Positions 51,110 to 62,665 of a DNA stretch of 64,000 nt are shown here, in pieces. This DNA comes from Gordonia hankookensis. GTDB lineage: Bacteria > Actinomycetota > Actinomycetes > Mycobacteriales > Mycobacteriaceae. The DNA lies in contig NZ_JACWMS010000001.1 in assembly GCF_014673215.1 (NCBI RefSeq), forward strand, positions 1,488,001 to 1,552,000. Direction: 5' to 3'. The translations under genes and the position numbers were made by a program. The notes below the pieces were generated by a model. It searched no databases, was not told the DNA's origin, and saw nothing but the letters and a program-made list of their open reading frames with translations. The first letter of the stretch is position 1. Each line of letters starts with the position of its first letter.

Positions 51110-51230
51110 GCCTGTCCCACCGAACGAGGACGACCGCGGCGGGAACAATCGACCGGCCCGTAACATCAAACCCGTGAGCGGCCACCGACTGGTGGCAGCA
51201 CCGCACTCACACCCGATCGGAGGTCATGAC

Positions 51231-51635
51231 ATGCAAGAGGAGCCATCCATCCTGGCTTCACTCGGCATCGACCCCGCCGCCACGTCACCAGACCTCCCCG
51301 ACGGGGTCTGGGAGGCCGCACTCCAGGCAGCCTTCGACCCCGACGCGGTCGCCGACCCCGACACCGTGCCCGACATGGATGACACGCCACCACCGGACGA
51401 CGATGACGACGTCGTCGTGGTGGACGACCATCCGCACGTCGACGACCACGGCACGGCCCACACCGACATCGATCCCACCACCACCGACCACACCGGCACC
51501 GGACATGTGACGGATACGGATGTCGACGACGCCGCGCTCGATCAGCCGGGTCCCGACGGCAGTGAGCACCACGAGCCCGACCATTTCGACATCGATCACG
51601 GCGACCATGGCCACGACGGCCACCACGACATCTGA
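51231..51635 (+). CDS. Asp/His-rich acidic protein preceding the ECF sigma gene
   Basis: 134 residues from the ATG with GGAGG 7 bases upstream. The first 40 residues look folded (SILASLGIDPAATSPDLPDG, then VWEAALQAAF). The remainder is low complexity: a DDDDDVVVV patch, then His/Asp-rich tail ending HGDHGHDGHHDI with over a dozen His. No signal peptide. Such tails commonly bind Zn, Ni or Co. It ends 19 bases before the ECF sigma gene and is very likely co-transcribed with it, in the slot where an anti-sigma factor could be encoded. Its function is unknown. It is not similar to mycobacterial IniB as far as can be judged by eye. Confidence 0.75.
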   Translation: MQEEPSILASLGIDPAATSPDLPDGVWEAALQAAFDPDAVADPDTVPDMDDTPPPDDDDDVVVVDDHPHVDDHGTAHTDIDPTTTDHTGTGHVTDTDVDDAALDQPGPDGSEHHEPDHFDIDHGDHGHDGHHDI

Positions 51636-51654: not shown

Positions 51655-52209
51655 ATGGACGAAGCGGTGCTGCTGATGCAGGCACGCGAGGGTGATCAGC
51701 ATGCTTTCGCGCAACTCGTCGCCGCCCACCGCACCCATGTCTGGGCGGTGTGCCTCAACATCTGCGGCAATCAGCACGACGCCGAGGACGCGCTGCAGAA
51801 CACCCTCGTCGCGGCATGGCAGAACCTACACAAGTTCCGGGGCGAGGCCCGCTTCTCCACCTGGGTGCACCGCATCGCGGCGAACAACGCACTGACCGTG
51901 GTACGCCGCCGCAAGGACAACACCCAGATCACCGACTTCACCGATCCCGAACAACCGATCCAACTCGTCGACGACGCGGGCGGATCGAGCTTCGATGAGC
52001 GCCTCGCGGTGCGCGATGCCGTTCGTGATGCACTCGCCCGACTCCCCGATGATTTCCGTGAGGCGGTGGTCCTGCGCGAATTCGGCGACCTGACCTACGC
52101 CGACATCGCCGCCCACCAGGGCGTTGGCGTCCAGACCGTCAAGTCGCGGCTGAACCGGGCCAGGACCCAGCTCGCGGAGATCCTCCGCGATCAGATCACC
52201 ACGTCATAG
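51655..52209 (+). CDS. ECF-type RNA polymerase sigma factor
   Basis: 184 residues. Region 2: HAFAQLVAAHRTHVWAVCLNI, DAEDALQNTLVAAWQNLHKF and FSTWVHRIAANNALTVVRRR. Region 4: LPDDFREAVVLREFGDLTYADIAAHQGVGVQTVKSRLNRAR. Group IV sigma with no extra C-terminal domain. GGGGGAG just upstream of the ATG. No conventional zinc anti-sigma gene is adjacent; the preceding Asp/His-rich protein and the following 33-residue peptide are the only local partners. It could drive the dynamin-Hsp70-exporter cluster 1.8 kb downstream (inference). Confidence 0.9.
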   Translation: MDEAVLLMQAREGDQHAFAQLVAAHRTHVWAVCLNICGNQHDAEDALQNTLVAAWQNLHKFRGEARFSTWVHRIAANNALTVVRRRKDNTQITDFTDPEQPIQLVDDAGGSSFDERLAVRDAVRDALARLPDDFREAVVLREFGDLTYADIAAHQGVGVQTVKSRLNRARTQLAEILRDQITTS

Positions 52210-52501: not shown

Positions 52502-53773
52502 CTAGTTCGCGTTCTGATCCGCCTTGGTGAGAATCACGTATTGTGCCGAGATCGCTTGGTGCACATCCCTTTTGTCCCGCGCACTGTAGTTGCCCACGTA
52601 ACGCCCCTTCTGCACATAGCACGCGTACCAGGTACCGGTGTCGAGAGTCTTGCTCTGACACTTGGCGGCAGGCAGCCCGACCGGACTCTCCGCATCGGCC
52701 CAACCCTGACTGCGGCTCGACGTCAGCGAGGTATCGACGATGGTCTTCGCGCCATCCGGCGTGGACGCCCGGTACACGGTCGATTTCTCGATGGCGTTGG
52801 CCGTGGAGCCGACGTCGGTCAGCATGGTGAAGTCGGTCTTGGGATCGCCGCTCATCTGCGCCATCCCACGTGGACCGTAGACGGCGCGGATGCTGCCGCC
52901 GGGCAATGCGGCCTTACCCTTCTTGATCTCGTCGTCGGTGTAGGGCAATGCGTAGATCAGGACGTGATTCTGGTCGACGACCGGCGCACTGCTCCCCGTG
53001 ATACCCCTGGCCTTGGCCTCTTCCTTCGTCGGTGTGGCAGGGAACTTGTCGATCAGCGCGCTCTGGAGGGCCAGGGCCTTACGGACAGTCGGCTCCAGCA
53101 TGTTCTGCTGGGATGGCGTCGTCTCGAACCACTGATAGAGCACATACGAGTTGTGCGGGGTGAAGGCCATCATCTGCTTGTTCCCACCGCTGCTCCCCTG
53201 CACGACCAGTGTGTCCGGCAACCCGGGCAGTGTCGTCACGCGCGATTTGTCGCCGGTCGCCGTGGCGTCGGCCATCTGCCGGGCGGCGTCCTTGGCATCC
53301 GCGGGGGTCAGGTAACGGAGCACCATGTTGTTGATGGCCCGCTTGGTCCCCGCGCGCAGGCTCTCGTCCGGGGTCGCAGCCGCGTCGACGAAGCCCATCA
53401 GCATCTTCTTGTTGGCGGGCACCTTCGCGGTGTCGGGAGCGAGGACCATACCGAGATTGCTCGGGCCGCTGATCACCATCGTCGGCATGTTCGCATTGGT
53501 CAGATCGTCGTCGATCTCGAACGGCACCACCACGAACTGGGCCATCCGCTGCCCCTCCACCTGCAGGATGTTGTCCTGGGTGGCCTTCCCGAAGGCCGGC
53601 CTCGGGGCGGTCGGATAGGCGCCGGTGTCCAGGGCCGCGACGTCGACCGACGGCTCGGACGCCGCGCCGGACGCGGACACGCTGGTCGCCTCTCCCTGGG
53701 TGGTGCACCCTGCGATCGCCGTGATCGCGGCGAGAACCCCCACCCAGCGCACCACCGGCTGCCACTTCGTCAT
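52502..53773 (-). CDS. Lipoprotein, DUF7373-like family
   Basis: 423 residues. Lipoprotein signal MTKWQPVVRWVGVLAAITAI followed by the lipobox AGC (about residue 22). The rest is an exported two-half alpha/beta protein of a type found in several copies in Gordonia, Nocardia and Rhodococcus: DTGAYPTAPRPAFG near the start, then PDTLVVQG and HNSYVLYQWFET. Two Cys near the end (AAKCQSKT and WYACYV) could form a disulfide. Its function is unknown. It is transcribed divergently from the dynamin cluster and may belong to the same envelope system. Confidence 0.78.
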   Translation of the reverse strand: MTKWQPVVRWVGVLAAITAIAGCTTQGEATSVSASGAASEPSVDVAALDTGAYPTAPRPAFGKATQDNILQVEGQRMAQFVVVPFEIDDDLTNANMPTMVISGPSNLGMVLAPDTAKVPANKKMLMGFVDAAATPDESLRAGTKRAINNMVLRYLTPADAKDAARQMADATATGDKSRVTTLPGLPDTLVVQGSSGGNKQMMAFTPHNSYVLYQWFETTPSQQNMLEPTVRKALALQSALIDKFPATPTKEEAKARGITGSSAPVVDQNHVLIYALPYTDDEIKKGKAALPGGSIRAVYGPRGMAQMSGDPKTDFTMLTDVGSTANAIEKSTVYRASTPDGAKTIVDTSLTSSRSQGWADAESPVGLPAAKCQSKTLDTGTWYACYVQKGRYVGNYSARDKRDVHQAISAQYVILTKADQNAN

Positions 53774-54015
53774 CGTCCGTGTTCCCCTCGTCGTGTTCAG
53801 GCGCGCCGGATCTCCGGTGTTCTGGTTGCCGGCCGCTCGATGATCTATACATTTATTCGATGCGGTGGCGGCCGGAAAGGTTCCCCCGAAACACGCCTTC
53901 ACGATTGTGTTGTCAGAGTGCAGGGTAGTGCAGTACTGAGTTGATCAGTGCATTCACAGACTGGGTACGCTTCGGCTGGGTTTCTGTGTGGTGAGAACCG
54001 GGGGAAATGTCATAA

Positions 54016-55854
54016 ATGGGTGAGACTGCATCGCCGCGGGTTGCTGCGGCGTCTCCAGCAGCGTCGGCCGATGCCGCCGTCCAGGTGGTCGACGGGGCTG
54101 TCAAGGTGCTGCGCGCCTACCAGATGGACGCCCTGGCCGATGTCGCGGTGACCAAACTCGACCGTGACGAACAGACGCGGACCGTTGTGGTCGTCGGGGA
54201 GGTTCAGCGCGGCAAGAGTTCGCTGGTCAATGCCCTGATCGGACGACGCGACCTCTGCCCGGTCGGAGTGGACGTCACATCCTCGGTGTCGGTCAGCGTC
54301 ACCCCCGACAGCGGGCTCGGTTCCGACAGCACCGCGGAGCTGTTCTTCCCCTCCGGACCGCGGCCGGTCGCGGCCGACGAACTCGGCCAATGGGTCACCA
54401 CGGGCGGAGCCCAGGTGTGCGACCCACGGGTCGAGGAGCTGCCCACCGCTGCGGCCGTCGCGGTGCGCGACGCACGGATGACTGATGTGACCCTGGTGGA
54501 CACCCCGGGCGTCGGCGGCCTCGACGTGGGGCTGGCAAAGCTCGCCACCCGGTCCGCCCAGCAGGCGTGCGTGCTCGTGCTGGTCTGCGACGCGTCGAGC
54601 CCGTTGACGGCCCCGGAGATGGCGTTCGTCCGCGAGGCCACCGCCACGGTGGATTCGGTGGTCGTGGTGGTCACCAAGACCGACAAGAACCTCCGCCGGT
54701 GGCGGCAGATCGTCGCCGACAACGAACGAATCCTGGCCGAGCAGCTGCATCGGCGCGTCACTGTCGTCGGGGTGTCGAGCCTGCTTGCGGTGATGGCGGC
54801 CGACATCGCCGACGACGTCCAGCGTGATCGGCTGGAGACCGAGAGCGGGATCGCGGCCCTGCGCATCGAGCTCGCCCGCCGACTCGACGAGTCGTCGCGA
54901 TCCCCGCACATCGACGCCGTCCGCACGTGCCTGGAGGGGCTGCGCGTGATCCGCGGCCGGATCGGTCGCGAGCTCGACGCGGTACAGGCAGGCGCGACGT
55001 CGCTACCGGACCTGACCGCCGACCGGGACCGGCTCACCGAGCTCCAGGAACAATCCCGCCAGTGGGAGCAATACCTCGCCCGCGACCTCACCCTGCTGCG
55101 CCAGTCCGCTGTCGATGATCTCGAACGCCGCCTCGACGACGTGCGCGACAAGTGGACGAAGTACGTCAACACCCACGGCATGCAGGTGCTGCGGCGCAGC
55201 GAGCAGAAGTTCACCGCCGACATGCAGACCGATCTGCAACGCGCGATGGCCGAGACGCTGGCGGGGTTCCTCCAGCGATTGCACGACACGATCATCGCGC
55301 CCCGCTTCCCCGACGACCCCAGCGTGTGGGAAGAGCTCAGCACGCGCATCGTTGCGTCGATGCAGGACAAGCGGATCGAGACCCATCAGGTGGGCAGCAA
55401 ACGCCACGGGCTTCTCGATCCGACCCTGCTGACGATGGGCGTAGTCGGATCATCCACGCTCGGTGGACTTCTCGGCCTGTCGGCACTGATGGGCGTCGGC
55501 GTGGTGGTCGGAACCGTCTGGGTGGGCATCAATCTGAGCTTCCGTGCGATCCGGACCGGCAAGGCCAACCTGCTGACCTGGTTGCGCGAGACCATCGCGA
55601 CCACCAAAGCCGCCACCGGCCGCCTCCTCGACAGTGCGGTGGCGCAGTCCCGCCCGGAGATCATCATCCGCTACCGCGAATACCTGCGCGTGAACATCGA
55701 CGAGTTGCAGAAGACGATCGGCGAGGTACAGAAGGCGGCGTCGGCCGATGCTGCCGCCCGCGAGAAGTCGATCCAGCGACTGACCAGCAACCTGGGGATC
55801 GTCGACAAACGCATCACGGCGGCCGAACAGCTCCTCACCGGGGCCACCCGGTGA
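54016..55854 (+). CDS. iniA: Dynamin-like GTPase, IniA-like
   Basis: 612 residues. The GTPase domain has G1 GEVQRGKS (Lys67), G3 DTPG (Asp162) and G4 TKTD (220-223). A long helical stalk follows, then a hydrophobic paddle of two helices (about 470-510: GSSTLGGLLGLSALMGVGVV and beyond) for membrane insertion, and a C-terminal coiled coil. Order and length match mycobacterial IniA, which remodels the inner membrane and is induced by isoniazid and ethambutol. Its stop overlaps the next gene's GTG (55851-55854). The two products probably act as a pair, as bacterial dynamins often do. Confidence 0.87.
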   Translation: MGETASPRVAAASPAASADAAVQVVDGAVKVLRAYQMDALADVAVTKLDRDEQTRTVVVVGEVQRGKSSLVNALIGRRDLCPVGVDVTSSVSVSVTPDSGLGSDSTAELFFPSGPRPVAADELGQWVTTGGAQVCDPRVEELPTAAAVAVRDARMTDVTLVDTPGVGGLDVGLAKLATRSAQQACVLVLVCDASSPLTAPEMAFVREATATVDSVVVVVTKTDKNLRRWRQIVADNERILAEQLHRRVTVVGVSSLLAVMAADIADDVQRDRLETESGIAALRIELARRLDESSRSPHIDAVRTCLEGLRVIRGRIGRELDAVQAGATSLPDLTADRDRLTELQEQSRQWEQYLARDLTLLRQSAVDDLERRLDDVRDKWTKYVNTHGMQVLRRSEQKFTADMQTDLQRAMAETLAGFLQRLHDTIIAPRFPDDPSVWEELSTRIVASMQDKRIETHQVGSKRHGLLDPTLLTMGVVGSSTLGGLLGLSALMGVGVVVGTVWVGINLSFRAIRTGKANLLTWLRETIATTKAATGRLLDSAVAQSRPEIIIRYREYLRVNIDELQKTIGEVQKAASADAAAREKSIQRLTSNLGIVDKRITAAEQLLTGATR

Positions 55855-57287
55855 ACGCCCCACGCCCGGTCACCCGGGTCGACACCGATCCCGTCCACGC
55901 CACCCTCGATCACGGACTGCACCAATTGGCCGCTCTCGGTGGTGATCTCGCCGCACACGCCAACGCGATCGGCACCATCCTGTGGTCTCCGCCGCGGGTC
56001 GTGGTCGTCGGTCGGCTCAAGGCGGGCAAGTCGACACTGGTGAACGCGTTGATCGGCGCACCGGTCGCGGAGACCGCGGCCCTGGAGGCCACCAACGTGG
56101 TCACCGTCTACCAGGACGGTTCGCCGTCGCGCGCCGAGGTGGTCGGGGTGGACGGCGGGCGGCATCCGGTTGCGGTGCACCGCGACCACGCCATCCGACT
56201 TCCGCTGGAGACCCCCGACATCCAGTTCGTGGACAGATGGTTGCCATCGGCGGCACTACGTCAGCTGACCCTCATCGACACCCCGGGGCTGTCGACGCTG
56301 ACGGTGGCCAACGACTCGGCCACCCGCCGGGTGATGATCGACGGTTTCGAGCAGACGCGTACCGCCTCGATCGACGCCGACGCCGCGGTCTTCCTGTTCG
56401 ATGCCGCACCCCGCTCCGATGAGATCGACTTCCTCTCGCAGTTGCCGTTCACGCCACTCAACATGCTGGGCGTGTTGTCTCGGGCGGACTCCTTCGGCGA
56501 GGGCGCGCTGGGGCGGGTCGACCCGTTGACCCACGCCGCCCGGCACGCCACGAGGATGGCAGATCAGTTGTCCGACACAGTGAGTGCGGTGGTGCCGATC
56601 TCCGGCCTGATGGCCCAGACCAGCCACACCGGGATGCTCACCGAGCAGATGGCCGATGCACTTGCGCGGCTGCAGGGGATGGCACCGCTCGATGTGGTGC
56701 GCACCTTCGACAACGACGACGCCGACGGCGTGCTGCCCCTGCCGGTGCGGGAAAACCTGCTCGGACTGCTCGGCGAATACGGCGTGCTCAACGGACGGCA
56801 GATCGCCGCGGGCGGAGCCGCCGCCCTCAACGCGTGGTTGACCGAGCGGTCTGGCGTCGGCGGGCTGCATCAGGCACTGAACGCATCCACCACCCGGTTC
56901 GCGATCCTGCACCGCGCCCATCGCATCCTCGCGCGTCTCGATCAGCTCGCGTTCACCCATCCGGCCCGAGACCACATCCGGTCGCTGACCATGCAGCTGC
57001 GGTCGGCGCCTGCGCTCCACCTGGTGTCGGTACTCGAGGATTACCAACGCATGCTGCGCACCGATCCGCAGGCCCCGGTCACCGAGGAACTGCACACCAT
57101 CCTCGTTGCCACGTCCCCTGCCGGACGCGTCGGATTACCGGATCGGGCACCCGCGCATGCGATATCCGCCGAAGCCCGACGACGACTCGCGACAGCACAA
57201 CAACGTTCCCTGGCCACCAGTTCGGCAGCCGAGGACGCTGCCATCGTCACCCTCATCCGAACCTACACACCGCTGACCCACACGTGA
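55851..57287 (+). CDS. iniC: Dynamin-like GTPase, IniC-like
   Basis: 478 residues from a GTG in the GTGA overlap with iniA. G1 GRLKAGKS (Lys60), G3 DTPG (Asp143), and G4 degenerate to SRAD. The stalk is helical, and no strong membrane paddle is seen, as in IniC. It is shorter than the IniA-like partner. Translationally coupled on both sides: its own stop overlaps the Hsp70-like gene's GTG at 57284-57287. Probable role: heteromeric membrane remodelling with the IniA-like protein. Confidence 0.85.
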   Translation: MNAPRPVTRVDTDPVHATLDHGLHQLAALGGDLAAHANAIGTILWSPPRVVVVGRLKAGKSTLVNALIGAPVAETAALEATNVVTVYQDGSPSRAEVVGVDGGRHPVAVHRDHAIRLPLETPDIQFVDRWLPSAALRQLTLIDTPGLSTLTVANDSATRRVMIDGFEQTRTASIDADAAVFLFDAAPRSDEIDFLSQLPFTPLNMLGVLSRADSFGEGALGRVDPLTHAARHATRMADQLSDTVSAVVPISGLMAQTSHTGMLTEQMADALARLQGMAPLDVVRTFDNDDADGVLPLPVRENLLGLLGEYGVLNGRQIAAGGAAALNAWLTERSGVGGLHQALNASTTRFAILHRAHRILARLDQLAFTHPARDHIRSLTMQLRSAPALHLVSVLEDYQRMLRTDPQAPVTEELHTILVATSPAGRVGLPDRAPAHAISAEARRRLATAQQRSLATSSAAEDAAIVTLIRTYTPLTHT

Positions 57288-59218
57288 CCAGCCACCCGAA
57301 ACCGCAGAGGACACAGGACACTTCGCACATGTCACCCACCACATGGACCCTGGCCATCGACTTCGGAACATCCAATTCCGCTGCCGCGCACTCGGGTGCG
57401 ACCAGTGGCGGTATCGAGACGCTGTCGCTGACGCATACCAGCAATCTCATGCCGTCAGCGGTCTACGTCGGCGCACCGGACCGCATCACGGTCGGCGACG
57501 CCGCGGTCGACCAGGCCCAACAGAATCCCGCCGGCTTCGTGGCCTCCCCGAAGAGGCTGATCGGCAGTGGCCCGATGTGCACCGTCAACGGGTACACCTT
57601 CCCGACCTACGTCCTCGTGGCGGCGGTGGTGGGCACGATCCTGCAGCGGGGCAAGGCCGCCCACGCCGGCATGCCGCCCGCCCAGGTGGTGATCACGCAC
57701 CCGGAGGCGTGGGCACAGCAGCAGATCCGCGTCCTGATCGACGGCGCCGCCCAGGCCGGTATCGACCCGGCCCGTATCACCACCATCTCCGAGCCGCGCG
57801 CGGCGGCGGCACACTACTCGCGCTCGCACGCAATGCAGCCGGGCGCCCGCATCGCCGTCTTCGACTTCGGCGGCGGCACACTGGACATCGCCGTCCTGAC
57901 GGTCACCAACGAGAATGCCTTCGGGGTGGTGGCCGCCCGCGGCAACAACGGTCTGGGCGGCAAGAACCTCGACGCGCTCGTCCAGCGTTGGGTGGAGCAG
58001 CGACTCTCCGACCGCGATGAGAATCTGGTCACCTATCTGCGGCGGCAGGCACCGCTCGACGTCGTCCAGAGCCTGCAGGACTCGATCCGGCGCGCCAAGG
58101 AGCTGCTGTCGGAGGCACCGTCGGCGACCATCACCGTGCCGGCGCCCGCCGGTCGCCAGACCCTGCAGATCACCCGCGACGAGTTCGACGAGCTGATCAC
58201 GCCCGCCGTGGACCAGGCGATGCAGTTGACGAGGGCAACGCTGCTCGATGCCGGGATCACTCATCCGGAACAACTGACCGCCCTGTATCTGACCGGCGGG
58301 TCGTCGCGGATTCCGCTGGTCCAGCAACGGCTCGGCGAACTCGGCCCCGTTGCCACCCTCGATGACCCGAAAACAGTTGTCGCCCAAGGCGCGTTGGTGA
58401 CCGCACTGGCCGAGAACGCGCCGAACACCAACGAGCGCGCCACCGTCGTCCCCCGCGCAGGCGACCTCATGCCGTCGTGGCACGCACAGCCGCCCGGCCA
58501 GACATCGCAACGCCCGGAAACAGTGCCAGACGGTCAGCAGTACGGCCGGCCTCCATATGTGGTGCCCGAGTTCTCCGGACCCGATGCGGCGGCCACCGGC
58601 ACCGGCCGACGGTGGGGACGCATCGGCGCGATCGCCGTGGCGGTCGTCGCCGTCGTCGGCATCGTTGCCGGGACCATCGCACTGATGTCACGTGACAACG
58701 GCGGCGGGGACGACCCCGGTCAGTCCGGACAGACCGCTGCGGCTGCCACCGCGACGGGTGAGACCGGCGCCGACGGCGGCATGATCATGACCGACGCGAC
58801 CCAGTTGATGAGCACTCTGCCCGGTCCGCTGCGCGAGGCCACCACGAACTGCCGAAAGGTCGGTTTCACCAAGAACGACGCGGTGCGCATGCAATGCAAC
58901 TTCGCCGAAGACGGCGAACTGGCAGATCTCAAGGGCACCGACACGCTGTCCTATTTCATGACCTTCGAGGTCGACGAGAGCGAGGCGAAGGCCAAGATCG
59001 TGGGTATCCGCAACGGCACCTACAGCCAGGGCAAGGGAACGCTCGTCGAGGACGCGGACCGGCTCTCCGCCGCGGACATCGACCTCGCCTCGACCGTGTC
59101 CACCGATTACAACATCGACTACGCCAGCACCGCCTCGAGCCTCGTCATCACGGTCTTCGGCATCGGTTCGGTCGACGAGGGCAAGACGTTCCTGACGCGA
59201 TCCGGACTGATCTCCTGA
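57284..59218 (+). CDS. Membrane-anchored Hsp70/actin-fold ATPase with outer domain
   Basis: 644 residues from the coupled GTG (an ATG at 57329 gives 629). The Hsp70 ATPase domain (about 22-390) has phosphate-1 LAIDFGTSNSAAA, phosphate-2 VFDFGGGTLDIAV (Asp194) and adenosine motif LTGGSSRIPLVQQRL. There is no DnaK substrate-binding domain. Instead a Pro/Gln linker leads to one membrane helix (about 445-467) and a Gly/Thr linker, then an outer domain of about 160 residues with two Cys (TTNCRKVGF, RMQCNFAEDG). ATP state inside could thus be linked to an envelope domain. Coupled to iniC, so it should work with the dynamins. Confidence 0.85.
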   Translation: MTSHPKPQRTQDTSHMSPTTWTLAIDFGTSNSAAAHSGATSGGIETLSLTHTSNLMPSAVYVGAPDRITVGDAAVDQAQQNPAGFVASPKRLIGSGPMCTVNGYTFPTYVLVAAVVGTILQRGKAAHAGMPPAQVVITHPEAWAQQQIRVLIDGAAQAGIDPARITTISEPRAAAAHYSRSHAMQPGARIAVFDFGGGTLDIAVLTVTNENAFGVVAARGNNGLGGKNLDALVQRWVEQRLSDRDENLVTYLRRQAPLDVVQSLQDSIRRAKELLSEAPSATITVPAPAGRQTLQITRDEFDELITPAVDQAMQLTRATLLDAGITHPEQLTALYLTGGSSRIPLVQQRLGELGPVATLDDPKTVVAQGALVTALAENAPNTNERATVVPRAGDLMPSWHAQPPGQTSQRPETVPDGQQYGRPPYVVPEFSGPDAAATGTGRRWGRIGAIAVAVVAVVGIVAGTIALMSRDNGGGDDPGQSGQTAAAATATGETGADGGMIMTDATQLMSTLPGPLREATTNCRKVGFTKNDAVRMQCNFAEDGELADLKGTDTLSYFMTFEVDESEAKAKIVGIRNGTYSQGKGTLVEDADRLSAADIDLASTVSTDYNIDYASTASSLVITVFGIGSVDEGKTFLTRSGLIS

Positions 59219-59306
59219 CGCCGGGAACATTCTCGCCGGGCCGCCGCATCCAATCCCTGACAACAGCACAACAGCTTCGTTCACCGAACTCAGGAAGGCG
59301 GACCCC

Positions 59307-60149
59307 ATGTCCGACAGCACACAGACCAGCACCGCCACCCCGGATGTCGCCGAGAACCCGGTGATCAGCCCCGACGCCCCGTACGATGCTTCCGCGCCGG
59401 AGAACACGAGCTCCACGAGCGCCACTGCCCCGACACCACCGACCACACCGGCGGATCCGGATACGCACGCGACCTCAGGCGGCGAGGCCGGTGTGAAGTC
59501 GGCCGTCGACACCGACGGCGACGGCAGCCCCGACGTCGTGCACGCCACCGACGCATCAGGCACCGACATCAACGCCTACCTCGACGACCACGGCAACGTG
59601 ATGCTCGTGGAGGCCGACACCGACGGCAACGGCACCTTCGACACGCTGGTCCACGCCGGCCAGGACGGCAGCACCATCGTCGAGGTCGACTCGGACGACG
59701 ACGGGCAGGCCGACACGATCGCGACCCTCGACGCGAACGGACAACTGCGCCAGGTCGACACTCTCGATCACGGACATGTCGTCAGCTCGACGATCGACGT
59801 CGACGGCGACGGCACCCCCGATGTGCAACTGGTGGACACCGACCACGACGGCGGGTTCGACGCGACGATCCTCGACGTCGACAACGACGGCAAAGCCGAC
59901 ACCGTCCTGCGCGACACCGATGGAGACGGGCAGGCCGACACGATGGGGCACATCAACGGCGGGGTAGACGACTCAGCGGTGCCGGACAACTCAGCAGCGC
60001 CGGACGACTCCGCAGTGCCGGACGACTCAGCCATGCCCGACGACGACCCGTCGGCCCCGGACGACGACCCGTCAGTGCCCGACACCGACGCGGGCGGCTA
60101 CGACGATCACTCGGCACACGACTCGCACGACATCCCCGACGCGATCTGA
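59307..60149 (+). CDS. Acidic DxDxDG-repeat protein (putative Ca2+-binding)
   Basis: 280 residues, strongly acidic. Residues about 65-220 carry repeated loops of the form DxDGDGxxD: VDTDGDGSPDVV, ADTDGNGTFDTL, VDSDDDGQADTI, VDGDGTPDVQ, TDHDGGFDAT, VDNDGKADTV and DTDGDGQADTM. These match calcium-loop patterns of thrombospondin-3/dockerin type. A 5-residue tandem repeat SA[VAM]PD[DN] (about 225-255) follows. No signal peptide or membrane helix was seen, which is odd for such repeats. It lies 88 bases after the Hsp70-like gene with AGGAAGG upstream, within the dynamin cluster. Confidence 0.8.
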   Translation: MSDSTQTSTATPDVAENPVISPDAPYDASAPENTSSTSATAPTPPTTPADPDTHATSGGEAGVKSAVDTDGDGSPDVVHATDASGTDINAYLDDHGNVMLVEADTDGNGTFDTLVHAGQDGSTIVEVDSDDDGQADTIATLDANGQLRQVDTLDHGHVVSSTIDVDGDGTPDVQLVDTDHDGGFDATILDVDNDGKADTVLRDTDGDGQADTMGHINGGVDDSAVPDNSAAPDDSAVPDDSAMPDDDPSAPDDDPSVPDTDAGGYDDHSAHDSHDIPDAI

Positions 60150-60209
60150 CCACGCCGCAGGCGACCTGTCACCACCGAGCCCGGTCCCCGGGCGGCTCAC
60201 TCCCCTCAC

Positions 60210-60240
60210 GGCGGGGGCGGCGACCTCATGTCGCCGCCCC
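60210..60240 (+). terminator. Hairpin between the repeat protein and the FHA-ABC gene
   Basis: Perfect 13-bp GC arms (CGGGGGCGGCGAC and its complement) with a CTCAT loop, 61 bases after the repeat-protein stop. It is either a terminator or a partial attenuator before the exporter gene on the same strand. Confidence 0.75.
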
Positions 60241-60319
60241 CGTCGGTGTTTCACCTCGAACATCGACCCCGTCGGCAGAACGGAAGCGGACCCGTGACGA
60301 ACGTGATGATCCCGGCAGT

Positions 60320-62665
60320 GTGTCCGTGGACGGAGCCCTTCATCCGCTCGGCTCCGCACCGCGCCTCACCGTCGGCCGCCACGTCGACAACGACATCGTG
60401 GTCGACCACCCGCTGGTGAGCGACCATCATCTGCGCATCGAGTGGCGTGGCCACGAGTGGTTTCTCGCCGCGGCCGACGCCGGTGCCCCGATGTTCGCCG
60501 CCGGCGGGCCCGTCACGGAGATGGCGGTCACCGGTACCGCCCAGATCCATCTCGGCAGTCCGGGGCGCGGTCCCGTGCTGGTCGTCGCACTCGCCGGCGA
60601 CCAGCACGGACCCCACACCACCGGCCGCGCCTCCCTCGACGGCCCGGTCGGCATCGGGCTCCCGACGCCCGGGCCGTCCCCGATGCCACGCTCGCTCCGC
60701 GGCGCACCTCACCTGAGGCCCATGCACCAGAACCTCGACGGCGGGACCGTGCTGGCACTGCGCGACGGCGTGTGCACCATCGGGCGCACCCCCGGCAACG
60801 ACCTGGTCGTCGACGACATGCTCGTCTCCCGCAGGCACGCCCAGATCACCACGGACCGCGACGGGATCCGGCTCGTCGATCTCGGCGGCATCAACGGCAC
60901 CCATGTCAACGGTCACCGTGTCGGCGGCGCAATGCTGCACGACGGGGACGTCGTGACCATCGGCAACAGTGACTTCCTGGTGTCCGGACGCGCACTGGTC
61001 AGAGGCCACGCGCCCGACGCCGTCGAGACCGGGCTGCACGTGCACGGCGTGAGCCTGGTGGTCGACGGGGACAAACACCTGCTCCGCGACGTCGAGTTCA
61101 GCGCGGCGCCCGGCACATTGACCGCGGTGATCGGTCCGTCGGGGGCAGGCAAATCCACGGTGTCGAAGGTCGCTGCCGGGCTCGGGACCCCGTCCACCGG
61201 GTATGTCACCTTCGAGGGCCGTGACGTCCACGCCGACTACGACTCGCTGCGCACCCGTATCGGCATGGTCCCGCAGCAAGACGTCCTGCACCACAAGCTC
61301 ACCCTCCGGCAGGCACTGCGCTACGCCGCGGAACTGCGACTGCCGCCGGACATCTCCACCACCGACCGTGACGCGGTGATCACCGGAGTGCTCGGCGAAC
61401 TACAGTTGCTCGAGCACCTGGACACCCGAGTCGACAAGCTGTCCGGCGGACAACGCAAGCGTGCGTCGGTGGCGATGGAACTGCTCACCGGTCCGTCGTT
61501 GCTGATCCTCGACGAACCGACGTCCGGATTGGACCCGGCGCTCGACCGGCAGGTGATGGCCACGCTGCGGCGCCTCGCCGACGCCGGCCGGGTGGTGGTC
61601 GTGGTCACCCATTCGCTGACCCACCTGTCGATGTGCGACCAGGTCCTGCTGCTCGCACCGGGCGGCAAGACCGCGTTCTGCGGTGCCCCCGACCAGGTGG
61701 ACGCGGCGATGGGCACCGGCGACTGGGCGGAGATCTTCGCGTTCGTCGCCGCCCATCCCGACGCGGCCCACGAGCGACACCGGCGTACCCGGCCGCCGTC
61801 ACCCGCGGTTCGGCCGCGCAGGCCGTCCGGCCCGTCGATGTCGACGCCACATCACGATCCGGTCCGGCAGGCCGCCACCATCGCCCGTCGCCAGATCCGC
61901 CTCATCCTCGCCGACACCGGCTATCTCGTGTTCCTCGCGGTGATGCCGATCGTGCTCGGGCTGCTGACCCTGGTCATCCCGGGGTCGAGCGGCTTCGCGA
62001 TCAATCGAGCACCCGACACCGCGGGCGAGGCCTTGCAGATCCTGGTGATCCTCACCGTCGGGGCCACCTTCATGGGCACCGCGTTGACCGTGCGCGACCT
62101 GGTCGCCGAACACGACATCTACCACCGGGAGCGCGCCGTCGGACTGCAACCCGGCGCCTACCTGACGGCGAAGATCGTCGTGTTCGGTGCGGCCGCAGTC
62201 GTCCAGACGTCGGTGATGGTCGCGATCACCTACGCAGGCAAAGGTGTCCCGGCCGGCGGGGTGCTGATACCGGCGGCGCTCGAACTCTTCGGCGCCGTCG
62301 CCGTCCTCGCGTGTGTCAGCGCTCTGGTCGGGCTGGCCATCTCCGCTTCGGCGCGTTCCGTCGAGCAGACGATGCCGCCGATGGTCATCGCCGTCATCTC
62401 ACAGCTGGTGTTCTGCGGCGGCCTGTTCCGGTTGACCACGCCGGGGCTGCAACAACTGTCGTGGCTGTTCCCGTCGTACTGGGGTTACGCGGTGTCCGCG
62501 TCGTCGGTGGACCTCAACGCGATCTCACCGCTGGCACCCCAGACCGCCGACGCCCAGTTGTGGGAGCCATCGCTCTCGACCGTCGTGCTCGGATACAGCG
62601 CCCTGCTGTTGACCGCGACGATCCTGATCGGCGTCACCGCGTCGAGACTCCGCCTCCGCCGTTGA
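60320..62665 (+). CDS. Double-FHA ABC exporter fusion (Rv1747-like)
   Basis: 781 residues from a GTG. FHA domain 1 (about 1-85: LTVGRHVDNDIVVDHPLVSDHH) and FHA domain 2 (about 140-225: CTIGRTPGNDLVVDD, SRRHAQI, INGTHVNGH). Then an ABC ATPase with Walker A GPSGAGKST (Lys278), signature LSGGQRKR (about 374) and Walker B LLILDEPTSGLD. Then an ABC2-type permease of six helices (about 535-780). Same order as mycobacterial Rv1747, whose FHA domains bind phosphothreonines made by PknF and which is linked to export of phosphatidylinositol mannosides. The second FHA has the Arg/Ser/Asn phospho-binding set. Last gene of the dynamin cluster. It should be switched by a Ser/Thr kinase encoded elsewhere. 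Confidence 0.88.
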   Translation: MSVDGALHPLGSAPRLTVGRHVDNDIVVDHPLVSDHHLRIEWRGHEWFLAAADAGAPMFAAGGPVTEMAVTGTAQIHLGSPGRGPVLVVALAGDQHGPHTTGRASLDGPVGIGLPTPGPSPMPRSLRGAPHLRPMHQNLDGGTVLALRDGVCTIGRTPGNDLVVDDMLVSRRHAQITTDRDGIRLVDLGGINGTHVNGHRVGGAMLHDGDVVTIGNSDFLVSGRALVRGHAPDAVETGLHVHGVSLVVDGDKHLLRDVEFSAAPGTLTAVIGPSGAGKSTVSKVAAGLGTPSTGYVTFEGRDVHADYDSLRTRIGMVPQQDVLHHKLTLRQALRYAAELRLPPDISTTDRDAVITGVLGELQLLEHLDTRVDKLSGGQRKRASVAMELLTGPSLLILDEPTSGLDPALDRQVMATLRRLADAGRVVVVVTHSLTHLSMCDQVLLLAPGGKTAFCGAPDQVDAAMGTGDWAEIFAFVAAHPDAAHERHRRTRPPSPAVRPRRPSGPSMSTPHHDPVRQAATIARRQIRLILADTGYLVFLAVMPIVLGLLTLVIPGSSGFAINRAPDTAGEALQILVILTVGATFMGTALTVRDLVAEHDIYHRERAVGLQPGAYLTAKIVVFGAAAVVQTSVMVAITYAGKGVPAGGVLIPAALELFGAVAVLACVSALVGLAISASARSVEQTMPPMVIAVISQLVFCGGLFRLTTPGLQQLSWLFPSYWGYAVSASSVDLNAISPLAPQTADAQLWEPSLSTVVLGYSALLLTATILIGVTASRLRLRR

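Follow-up and report, generated by a model that had tools for sequence, protein, structure and literature searches.

The 64,000-nucleotide stretch of Gordonia hankookensis DNA analysed here (the window; C1:1488001-1552000, in a genome of 5.22 Mb) contains a gene set whose conserved core consists of iniA, iniC, a gene for a membrane-anchored Hsp70, a DxDxDG-repeat gene and a gene for an extracytoplasmic function (ECF) sigma factor. The FHA-ABC exporter gene found in the same neighbourhood is a Gordonia addition to this core. A single ECF-type promoter motif marks several genes of the set and tracks the presence of the set. An earlier note on this DNA had described five co-directional genes, from iniA to the exporter gene, at 54016-62665 and had proposed that they form one machine. 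We found all five open reading frames (ORFs) on the plus strand at that place, and Pfam, a PDB sequence search and motifs agreed on the dynamin pair, the Hsp70, the acidic repeat protein and the FHA-ABC protein. The ECF sigma factor gene, a small acidic ORF, a DUF7373 gene, a hairpin at 60210-60244 and the ECF-type motifs come in addition to what that note contained. With moderate confidence, we read the locus as a switchable envelope-stress membrane-remodelling system (fission, vesicle release or repair) of Gordonia and related soil bacteria.

A conserved gene set surrounds the IniA/IniC dynamin pair

IniA (54016-55854, plus strand, 612 aa) and IniC (55851-57287, plus strand, 478 aa) were identified as dynamin-like GTPases from their ORFs, Pfam matches and motif placement. 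Both exceeded the Dynamin_N cut-off of 27, IniA with 59.9 bits and IniC with 39.4 bits. IniA contains the G1 motif GEVQRGKSS (at 61), G3 DTPG (162), G4 TKTD (220) and a hydrophobic stretch at 485-503, and IniC contains G1 GRLKAGKST (54), G3 DTPG (143) and the letters SRAD at G4. The sole solved relative of IniA obtained by PDB sequence search was Mycobacterium smegmatis IniA, 6j72 (E 2.9e-14). The two genes are joined by a GTGA overlap, and a -4 overlap was measured in 12 of 15 Gordonia loci. In Gordonia sputi NBRC 100414 (L044 / L162) a frame change near mid-iniC splits the gene, either through a sequencing error or in a broken gene.

The DxDxDG-repeat protein (59307-60149, plus strand, 280 aa) is predicted to bind calcium. 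It contains seven strict D-x-[DN]-x-[DNS]-G motifs and 62 aspartates in its 280 residues; hydropathy prediction found no membrane helix, and its match to DUF6802 (E 7e-4) was under the Pfam cut-off. The ECF sigma factor gene (51655-52209, plus strand, 184 aa) has its start set by comparison with relatives, the longest ORF beginning at 51520, and its product exceeded the Pfam cut-offs for sigma regions 2 and 4 (Sigma70_r2, 62.7 bits; r4_2, 55.2 bits).

To place these genes in relatives we employed two samples. A search of 101 relative genomes with IniA gave matches in 56 genomes (82 match rows), and 60 of the 82 match places, taken nearly in order of score, were examined as neighbourhoods. In a named collection 180 stretches encode relatives, and the best 80 of these 180 were analysed; 37 of the 80 have an IniA of at least 35% identity and come from Gordonia, Williamsia, Rhodococcus, Corynebacterium, a Mycobacterium metagenome-assembled genome (MAG) and an Actinomycetales MAG. 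These 37 are the named loci. The 52 control loci were 48 Pup-proteasome regions and four other FHA-ABC places. Gene starts in the relatives' loci were taken from the analysis's own gene caller.

Among the 37 named loci IniC was detected in 36, Hsp70 in 35, the DxDxDG-repeat gene in 34 and the sigma factor in 32, and all four stood beside iniA in 30. The corresponding numbers for the 52 control loci were 0, 0, 1, 0 and 0. Five of the seven incomplete named loci are contig pieces shorter than 10 kb, and the other two (L163 and L179) are of full length. Sixteen Gordonia loci including the window, from 15 genomes and with IniA identities of 72-100%, were grouped as class A. All 16 showed the order DUF7373 (divergent) - iniA - iniC - hsp70, with the DxDxDG-repeat gene present in 14, the ECF sigma factor gene in 14 and the FHA-ABC gene adjacent in 13. 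In a second Gordonia class (class B, IniA identity 31-36%) the DxDxDG-repeat and sigma factor genes are mostly divergent from iniC-iniA-hsp70 and there is no adjoining FHA-ABC gene. The best 80 of 180 stretches included four class B loci, all with Hsp70, and 39 distant loci, of which seven had an Hsp70 match. The counts of Hsp70, IniC, DxDxDG-repeat and sigma factor genes in named, class B and distant loci therefore indicate that the gene set is solid in genera near Gordonia and loose beyond. The gene-neighbourhood check proposed in the earlier note thus came out in favour of a conserved unit, and an adjacency peculiar to this genome can be discarded because the unit of dynamin pair, membrane Hsp70 and DxDxDG-repeat gene recurs in at least four genera.

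A third group of Gordonia clusters (for example L084-L087 and L091) has the order iniB-like (about 1050-1160 aa) - iniA - iniC. In most of its members an Hsp70-like gene of weak similarity lies nearby, as does the gene for a large protein. The iniB-like protein of L085, a label that we presume from gene position and N-terminus, had no Pfam match, nor had the large protein. The large protein of this group may be a STAND regulator, and the cluster may be the true iniBAC counterpart.

The Hsp70 has a predicted membrane anchor and accompanies IniA

The Hsp70-type ATPase (57329-59218, plus strand, 629 aa) follows iniC closely. The GTGA joins that had been described for iniA, iniC and hsp70 stood for the first junction but not for the second, where the GTGA at 57284 is present and in frame and the called start is the ATG at 57329, 41 bases past the iniC stop. 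We consider this ATG a likelier start than the alternative GTG at 57284. In 15 Gordonia loci the gap between iniC and hsp70 was 24-76 bases in 12 and -4 in three.

The protein matched Pfam PF00012 with 129.7 bits, the best Pfam stretch stopping at profile position 372 of 599, and the PDB sequence search gave 377 matches under 0.001; among the 50 matches listed all were Hsp70-family chains or complexes containing one. The phosphate loops and the lysine of PKRLI are invariant across 12 aligned sequences. In the predicted model the ATPase domain is followed by a disordered linker, a helix and a different outer domain, and no substrate-binding domain was found in either the Pfam stretch or the model. 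The single predicted membrane helix (58631-58687, plus strand, residues 435-453) has a hydropathy of 2.73. The outer part comprises 176 residues, and the outer domain (58736-59215, plus strand) has two invariant cysteines and is weakly Mog1/PsbP-like. A membrane helix was predicted in 49 of the 52 Hsp70-type proteins called in the loci (absent in L062, L063 and L089), and its position differs between classes. The named relatives of the window Hsp70 are from Gordonia, and the window's own genome has three HSP70-family genes.

An Hsp70-type match was present in 50 of the 60 IniA neighbourhoods, four of the 50 being weak (50-61 bits). At E<=1e-45 the Hsp70 was detected in 37 of the 101 genomes, all 37 with an IniA match, and in none of the 45 genomes without IniA (Fisher p 1.3e-13, not corrected for relatedness). 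In 14 loci of other actinobacterial families (L066, L073, L075 and 11 more; cluster c18) a GrpE-type protein is encoded between or beside iniC and iniA, and this identity was above the Pfam cut-off in all three proteins tested. Some of the GrpE-type proteins show, by eye, an N-terminal hydrophobic stretch. At L058 (genome G021) three Hsp70-type genes, several DxDxDG-repeat genes and an ECF sigma factor gene surround one dynamin pair within 20 kb.

A single ECF-type motif precedes several genes of the set

A pattern of the GGAAC...CGTC type was tried first; its few matches led to the ECF-type motif. We trained a two-block weight matrix on ten sites upstream of DxDxDG-repeat genes in Gordonia class A loci and scanned 15 class A loci, leaving out L046 as a near copy of L045. 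Three sites lie in the window. The site of the DxDxDG-repeat gene (59223-59250, plus strand, 33.1 bits) is a training site that also matches the strict pattern. The site before the acidic ORF and the sigma factor gene (GGGAACAAT..ACATC; 51141-51167, plus strand, 20.6 bits, pattern match C1:1539141) is a candidate for sigma autoregulation. The site of the DUF7373 gene (53859-53885, minus strand, 21.1 bits) is also a strict-pattern match. We infer that the neighbouring ECF sigma factor reads this motif.

Across class A, a matrix site stood before the DxDxDG-repeat gene in 14 of 14 loci (the training set supplied ten of these sites, and L039 was assigned by position). The DUF7373 gene was preceded by a site of at least 20 bits in 8 of 15 loci. 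Among the 14 sigma-bearing loci, ten had a site before the sigma operon (three by label and seven by position; none in L041-L044). A site before the FHA-ABC gene was found in 4 of 13 loci (L036, L038, L039 and L047), where the DxDxDG-repeat gene is not its direct neighbour. In L037 and L040 the FHA-ABC gene begins ~20 bases after the DxDxDG-repeat gene, and in the other seven FHA-ABC loci, with gaps of 102-214 bases, no matrix site was found. Upstream of Gordonia iniA no ECF-type motif was detected at 11 bits in the 15 loci or at 5 bits in the window. A conserved element of a different sequence, AGTGCAGGGTAGTGCA (53917-53932, plus strand), lies upstream of iniA in the window and is a candidate iniA promoter element. 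Across 12 relatives it matched on average at 12.0 of 16 positions (10.9 at most for shuffles); another block was tied with it, and its distance from iniA varies.

The strict pattern GGGAACNNT-N13/14-RCRTC occurs at 14 sites in the window's own genome, compared with one for the reversed pattern. Three of the 14 belong to this locus (51141, 53885 and 59223) and one precedes a CD225 gene; the remaining ten have no gene of the set downstream. At 16 bits the matrix detected 46 sites in 23 of 28 loci from Williamsia, Rhodococcus and Corynebacterium (two MAGs included; none used in training), in comparison with three sites in the 52 control loci and none in all reversed sequences. It detected no site in the four class B loci and two in the 39 distant loci. 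In eight genomes with the system the strict pattern gave 36 sites, several of which are sites from which the pattern was drawn, compared with six in eight genomes without it and none when reversed. Where hsp70 is separated from iniC (L171, L179 and L196) it has its own motif site, and iniA has its own site in three of five Williamsia loci (L169, L189 and L210).

The motif also occurs before genes of other kinds. In the window's own genome a CD225 (IFITM-type) gene (L248 1119-1448) has the motif 80 bases upstream (C2:885883), and CD225 genes downstream of the motif were also found in G041, G028 and G038 (L259, L254 and L275). In three of these genomes the motif-bearing CD225 gene lies away from the cluster; in the fourth it adjoins a second copy of the Hsp70 gene. 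L041-L044 and L047 have a CD225-related gene within the cluster itself, with Pfam run on L042 only. In two genomes (L253 and L268) the motif precedes an amidase/deacetylase-like gene, whose HAHPDDE motif we take to be of the mycothiol type.

The FHA-ABC exporter is a Gordonia addition

The FHA-FHA-ABC half-transporter (60320-62665, plus strand, 781 aa) has an Rv1747-type arrangement, with two FHA stretches, ABC_tran and ABC2_membrane in one chain by Pfam and with the Walker A, signature and Walker B motifs placed. Its gene lies between the DxDxDG-repeat gene and an NAD-binding epimerase-type gene, and no PknF-type kinase gene was found among these direct neighbours. No second full-length FHA-ABC match was found in the same genome. 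A strong hairpin (60210-60244, plus strand, -39.3 kcal/mol, z -6.66) lies between the DxDxDG-repeat and FHA-ABC genes and is a candidate terminator with a poor T tail; L034 carries the same hairpin. A sigma-70 consensus scan gave no promoter-like sites, and the terminator rule of the same scan did not pick this hairpin. Among the 37 named loci the exporter gene stands beside the cluster in seven, every one of them from Gordonia; L165 gave a further FHA match, which is another FHA protein. One operon of five genes is rejected because of this hairpin, the separate ECF-type motifs of the DxDxDG-repeat gene, the DUF7373 gene and the sigma operon, and the restriction of the FHA-ABC linkage to Gordonia; the single five-gene machine proposed in the earlier note is likewise not supported.

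FHA-ABC matches at E<=1e-90 were present in 51 of 59 genomes of the genus (59 match rows, 13 of them ini-linked). We examined 40 of the 46 non-linked places, and 36 of the 40 lie in the Pup-proteasome locus, adjoining the gene for the proteasomal ATPase. At these loci (L102-L132, L134, L136-L138 and L140) the FHA-ABC gene lies beside mpa, usually as a single copy, near genes that we take from their sequences to be dop, pup, prcB, prcA and pafA (mpa and trmI were not named in this way). None of the 12 genomes that carry an ini-linked copy had an FHA-ABC match between mpa and dop, and in the three of these viewed in detail an ORF, presumably phosphorylase-like, fills the gap. The class A genomes without a linked copy (G023, G053 and G057) retain the copy at the proteasome locus. 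In a quick unrooted tree, which includes two long ini-linked rows of unusual composition, the 13 ini-linked copies fell on one side of a branch and the 39 others on the other (SH-aLRT 100). The 12 genomes with a linked copy split into two species clades. A mere relocation from the proteasome locus, genome by genome, is not favoured since the ini-linked copies occupy one side of the branch while their genomes fall into two clades. Our reading is that a stress-linked FHA-ABC exporter replaced the standing one, two independent losses being few cases.

The first FHA domain of the ini-linked form is degenerate. Of the letters that we take to form the phosphothreonine (pThr) site, STNG is lost and the SR of SRRH is changed in all 12 ini-linked copies with an FHA1 stretch; this comparison was made on 39 aligned sequences, with the 13th ini-linked copy lacking FHA1 and the letters kept in the seven others displayed. 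The pThr-site letters of FHA2 are intact in the ini-linked form. A second FHA-ABC paralogue type was seen in three genomes (L133, L135 and L141), where its neighbours are genes for an ABC exporter and a helicase-like protein.

Genes flanking the core

Upstream of the sigma factor gene lies an ORF for a small acidic protein (51231-51635, plus strand) with the motif W/F-[ED]-x-A-[LVI]-x-x-A-F and without a Pfam match. The motif was found in 10 of the 37 named loci, each with a sigma factor match and all ten from Gordonia. A role of this protein as a general anti-sigma factor was considered and dropped, since with this motif the protein was detected only in Gordonia; the analysis identified no anti-sigma factor. 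The DUF7373 gene (52502-53773, minus strand), divergent from iniA, matched PF24088 (159.1 bits) and PF24092 (89.3 bits) and has a lipoprotein-like start (IAGC by eye). It was present in all 16 class A loci, the window counted, in 19 of the 37 named loci and in none of the 52 controls.

A model for the locus and its alternatives

In the membrane-remodelling system that we propose, envelope damage would free the sigma factor, which would then read the motif; the sensor might be the DUF7373 lipoprotein or the Hsp70's outer domain. The dynamin pair would form its assembly at the inner face of the cell membrane, where the membrane-held ATPase domain of the Hsp70 would load or dismantle the dynamin assembly in cycles of ATP hydrolysis; Hsc70 stripping clathrin offers a parallel. 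The DxDxDG-repeat protein would act there as a calcium buffer or sensor, and in Gordonia the added Rv1747-like exporter would provide the outer leaflet with lipid or glycolipid, a putative cargo taken over from work on Rv1747 (PMC5549992). The gene set, the motif, the domain make-up and the exporter exchange are observations; the sigma-motif pairing, the stress signal, the membrane action of the dynamins, the action of the Hsp70 on them, calcium binding and the exporter cargo are our interpretation of them. A more specific version, which we put forward tentatively, is a chaperone-driven dynamin machine, in which a transmembrane Hsp70 with an outer sensor sets assembly and release of the IniA/IniC coat, helped in other families by the GrpE-type exchange factor. 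In this version the ECF sigma factor would switch on all parts, including the calcium-repeat protein, the lipoprotein and CD225, and the Gordonia lipid exporter would have taken over from the proteasome-locus copy.

It is also possible, though in our view less likely than the proposed remodelling system, that the genes form a regulon without a machine, being co-inherited through one ECF envelope-stress response while the dynamins, Hsp70, DxDxDG-repeat protein and exporter act separately. The separate motifs, the movable gene order, an FHA-ABC linkage that comes and goes and the same-motif CD225 genes of four genomes (three times away from the cluster, once adjoining another Hsp70 copy) would all fit such a regulon. 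However, the iniA-iniC overlap and tight iniC-hsp70 spacing of Gordonia, the lack of any Hsp70 at threshold without IniA among the 101 genomes and the GrpE-type gene adjoining the dynamin pair in other families argue for a closer relation.

A single five-gene operon acting as a glycolipid-export machine centred on the FHA-ABC exporter is unlikely. The common strand, the neighbouring position in 13 of the 16 class A loci of Gordonia and the substitution of the ini-linked exporter for the usual copy speak for it, as does the rise of iniBAC upon loss of Rv1747 in Mycobacterium tuberculosis described in PMC3908365, but the hairpin, the separate motifs and the absence of a cluster FHA-ABC gene from the named loci outside Gordonia speak against it. 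An anti-phage defence based on membrane dynamins and a CD225 protein, akin to LeoA/LeoBC-type dynamins, is less likely still: IniA matches the PADLOC models LeoBC (E 3e-15) and LeoA (E 2e-12), IniC matches weakly, and a CD225 gene lies under the same motif, yet many bacterial dynamins would presumably match the Leo models likewise, and the set, which includes a sigma factor gene of its own, is stable in gene order within genera.

The membrane-remodelling reading bears on a wider problem, the way in which bacterial dynamins are activated and returned to their starting state. Dynamins of the IniA/IniC type have been connected with envelope stress caused by drugs and with the release of vesicles. 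One answer that can be tested is a recurrent Hsp70-type ATPase partner, anchored by lineage-specific helices and accompanied in other families by a GrpE-type factor. The regulon outlined by the promoter motif is measurable, and the lack of the proteasome-locus exporter wherever an ini-linked copy exists is a natural experiment on the role of this exporter.

Comparison with known systems

The combination of IniA/IniC with Hsp70 was not found in print in the searches made of the open-licence PMC literature; among the papers listed no title joined the two, the related paper on DO-GTPases (PMC7159879) apart. The locus resembles the mycobacterial iniBAC/IniR system in its adjacent pair of dynamin-like GTPases, its envelope setting and its solved relative, M. 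smegmatis IniA, for which passages of PMC6715688 describe GTP-dependent membrane cutting in vitro; passages of PMC11832169 link iniAC with vesicle release. It differs in having an ECF sigma factor gene and attached Hsp70 and DxDxDG-repeat genes instead. A tblastn search of the whole window with the Gordonia IniB-like protein of L085 gave no IniB match, and two large candidate regulators, putatively of the STAND type and perhaps related to IniR, gave no match in the window when used as queries. The terms Hsp70, chaperone and sigma factor are absent from the IniR paper (PMC5760070).

The exporter shares with Rv1747 of the M. tuberculosis Rv1747-PknF system the FHA-FHA-ABC-ABC2 arrangement known for Rv1747 from papers; here, however, no kinase gene adjoins it and the ini-linked FHA1 has lost its pThr-site letters. 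According to passages of PMC5549992, FHA I of Rv1747 binds phospho-Rv2623 and Rv1747 may move phosphatidylinositol mannosides (PIMs). The window Hsp70 has in common with DnaK/Hsp70 chaperones the ATPase domain with its phosphate loops, but continues into a membrane helix and another outer domain in place of a detectable substrate-binding domain. In the DO-GTPase systems, as passages of PMC7159879 describe them, the GTPases often occur as paralogous pairs and some are linked with HSP70, GrpE and membrane parts, which makes them alike to the present set. The DO-GTPases, however, form a TRAFAC family of their own and are partnered by GAP1 and GASH or FNIII, whereas the GTPases of the window are dynamins by Pfam.

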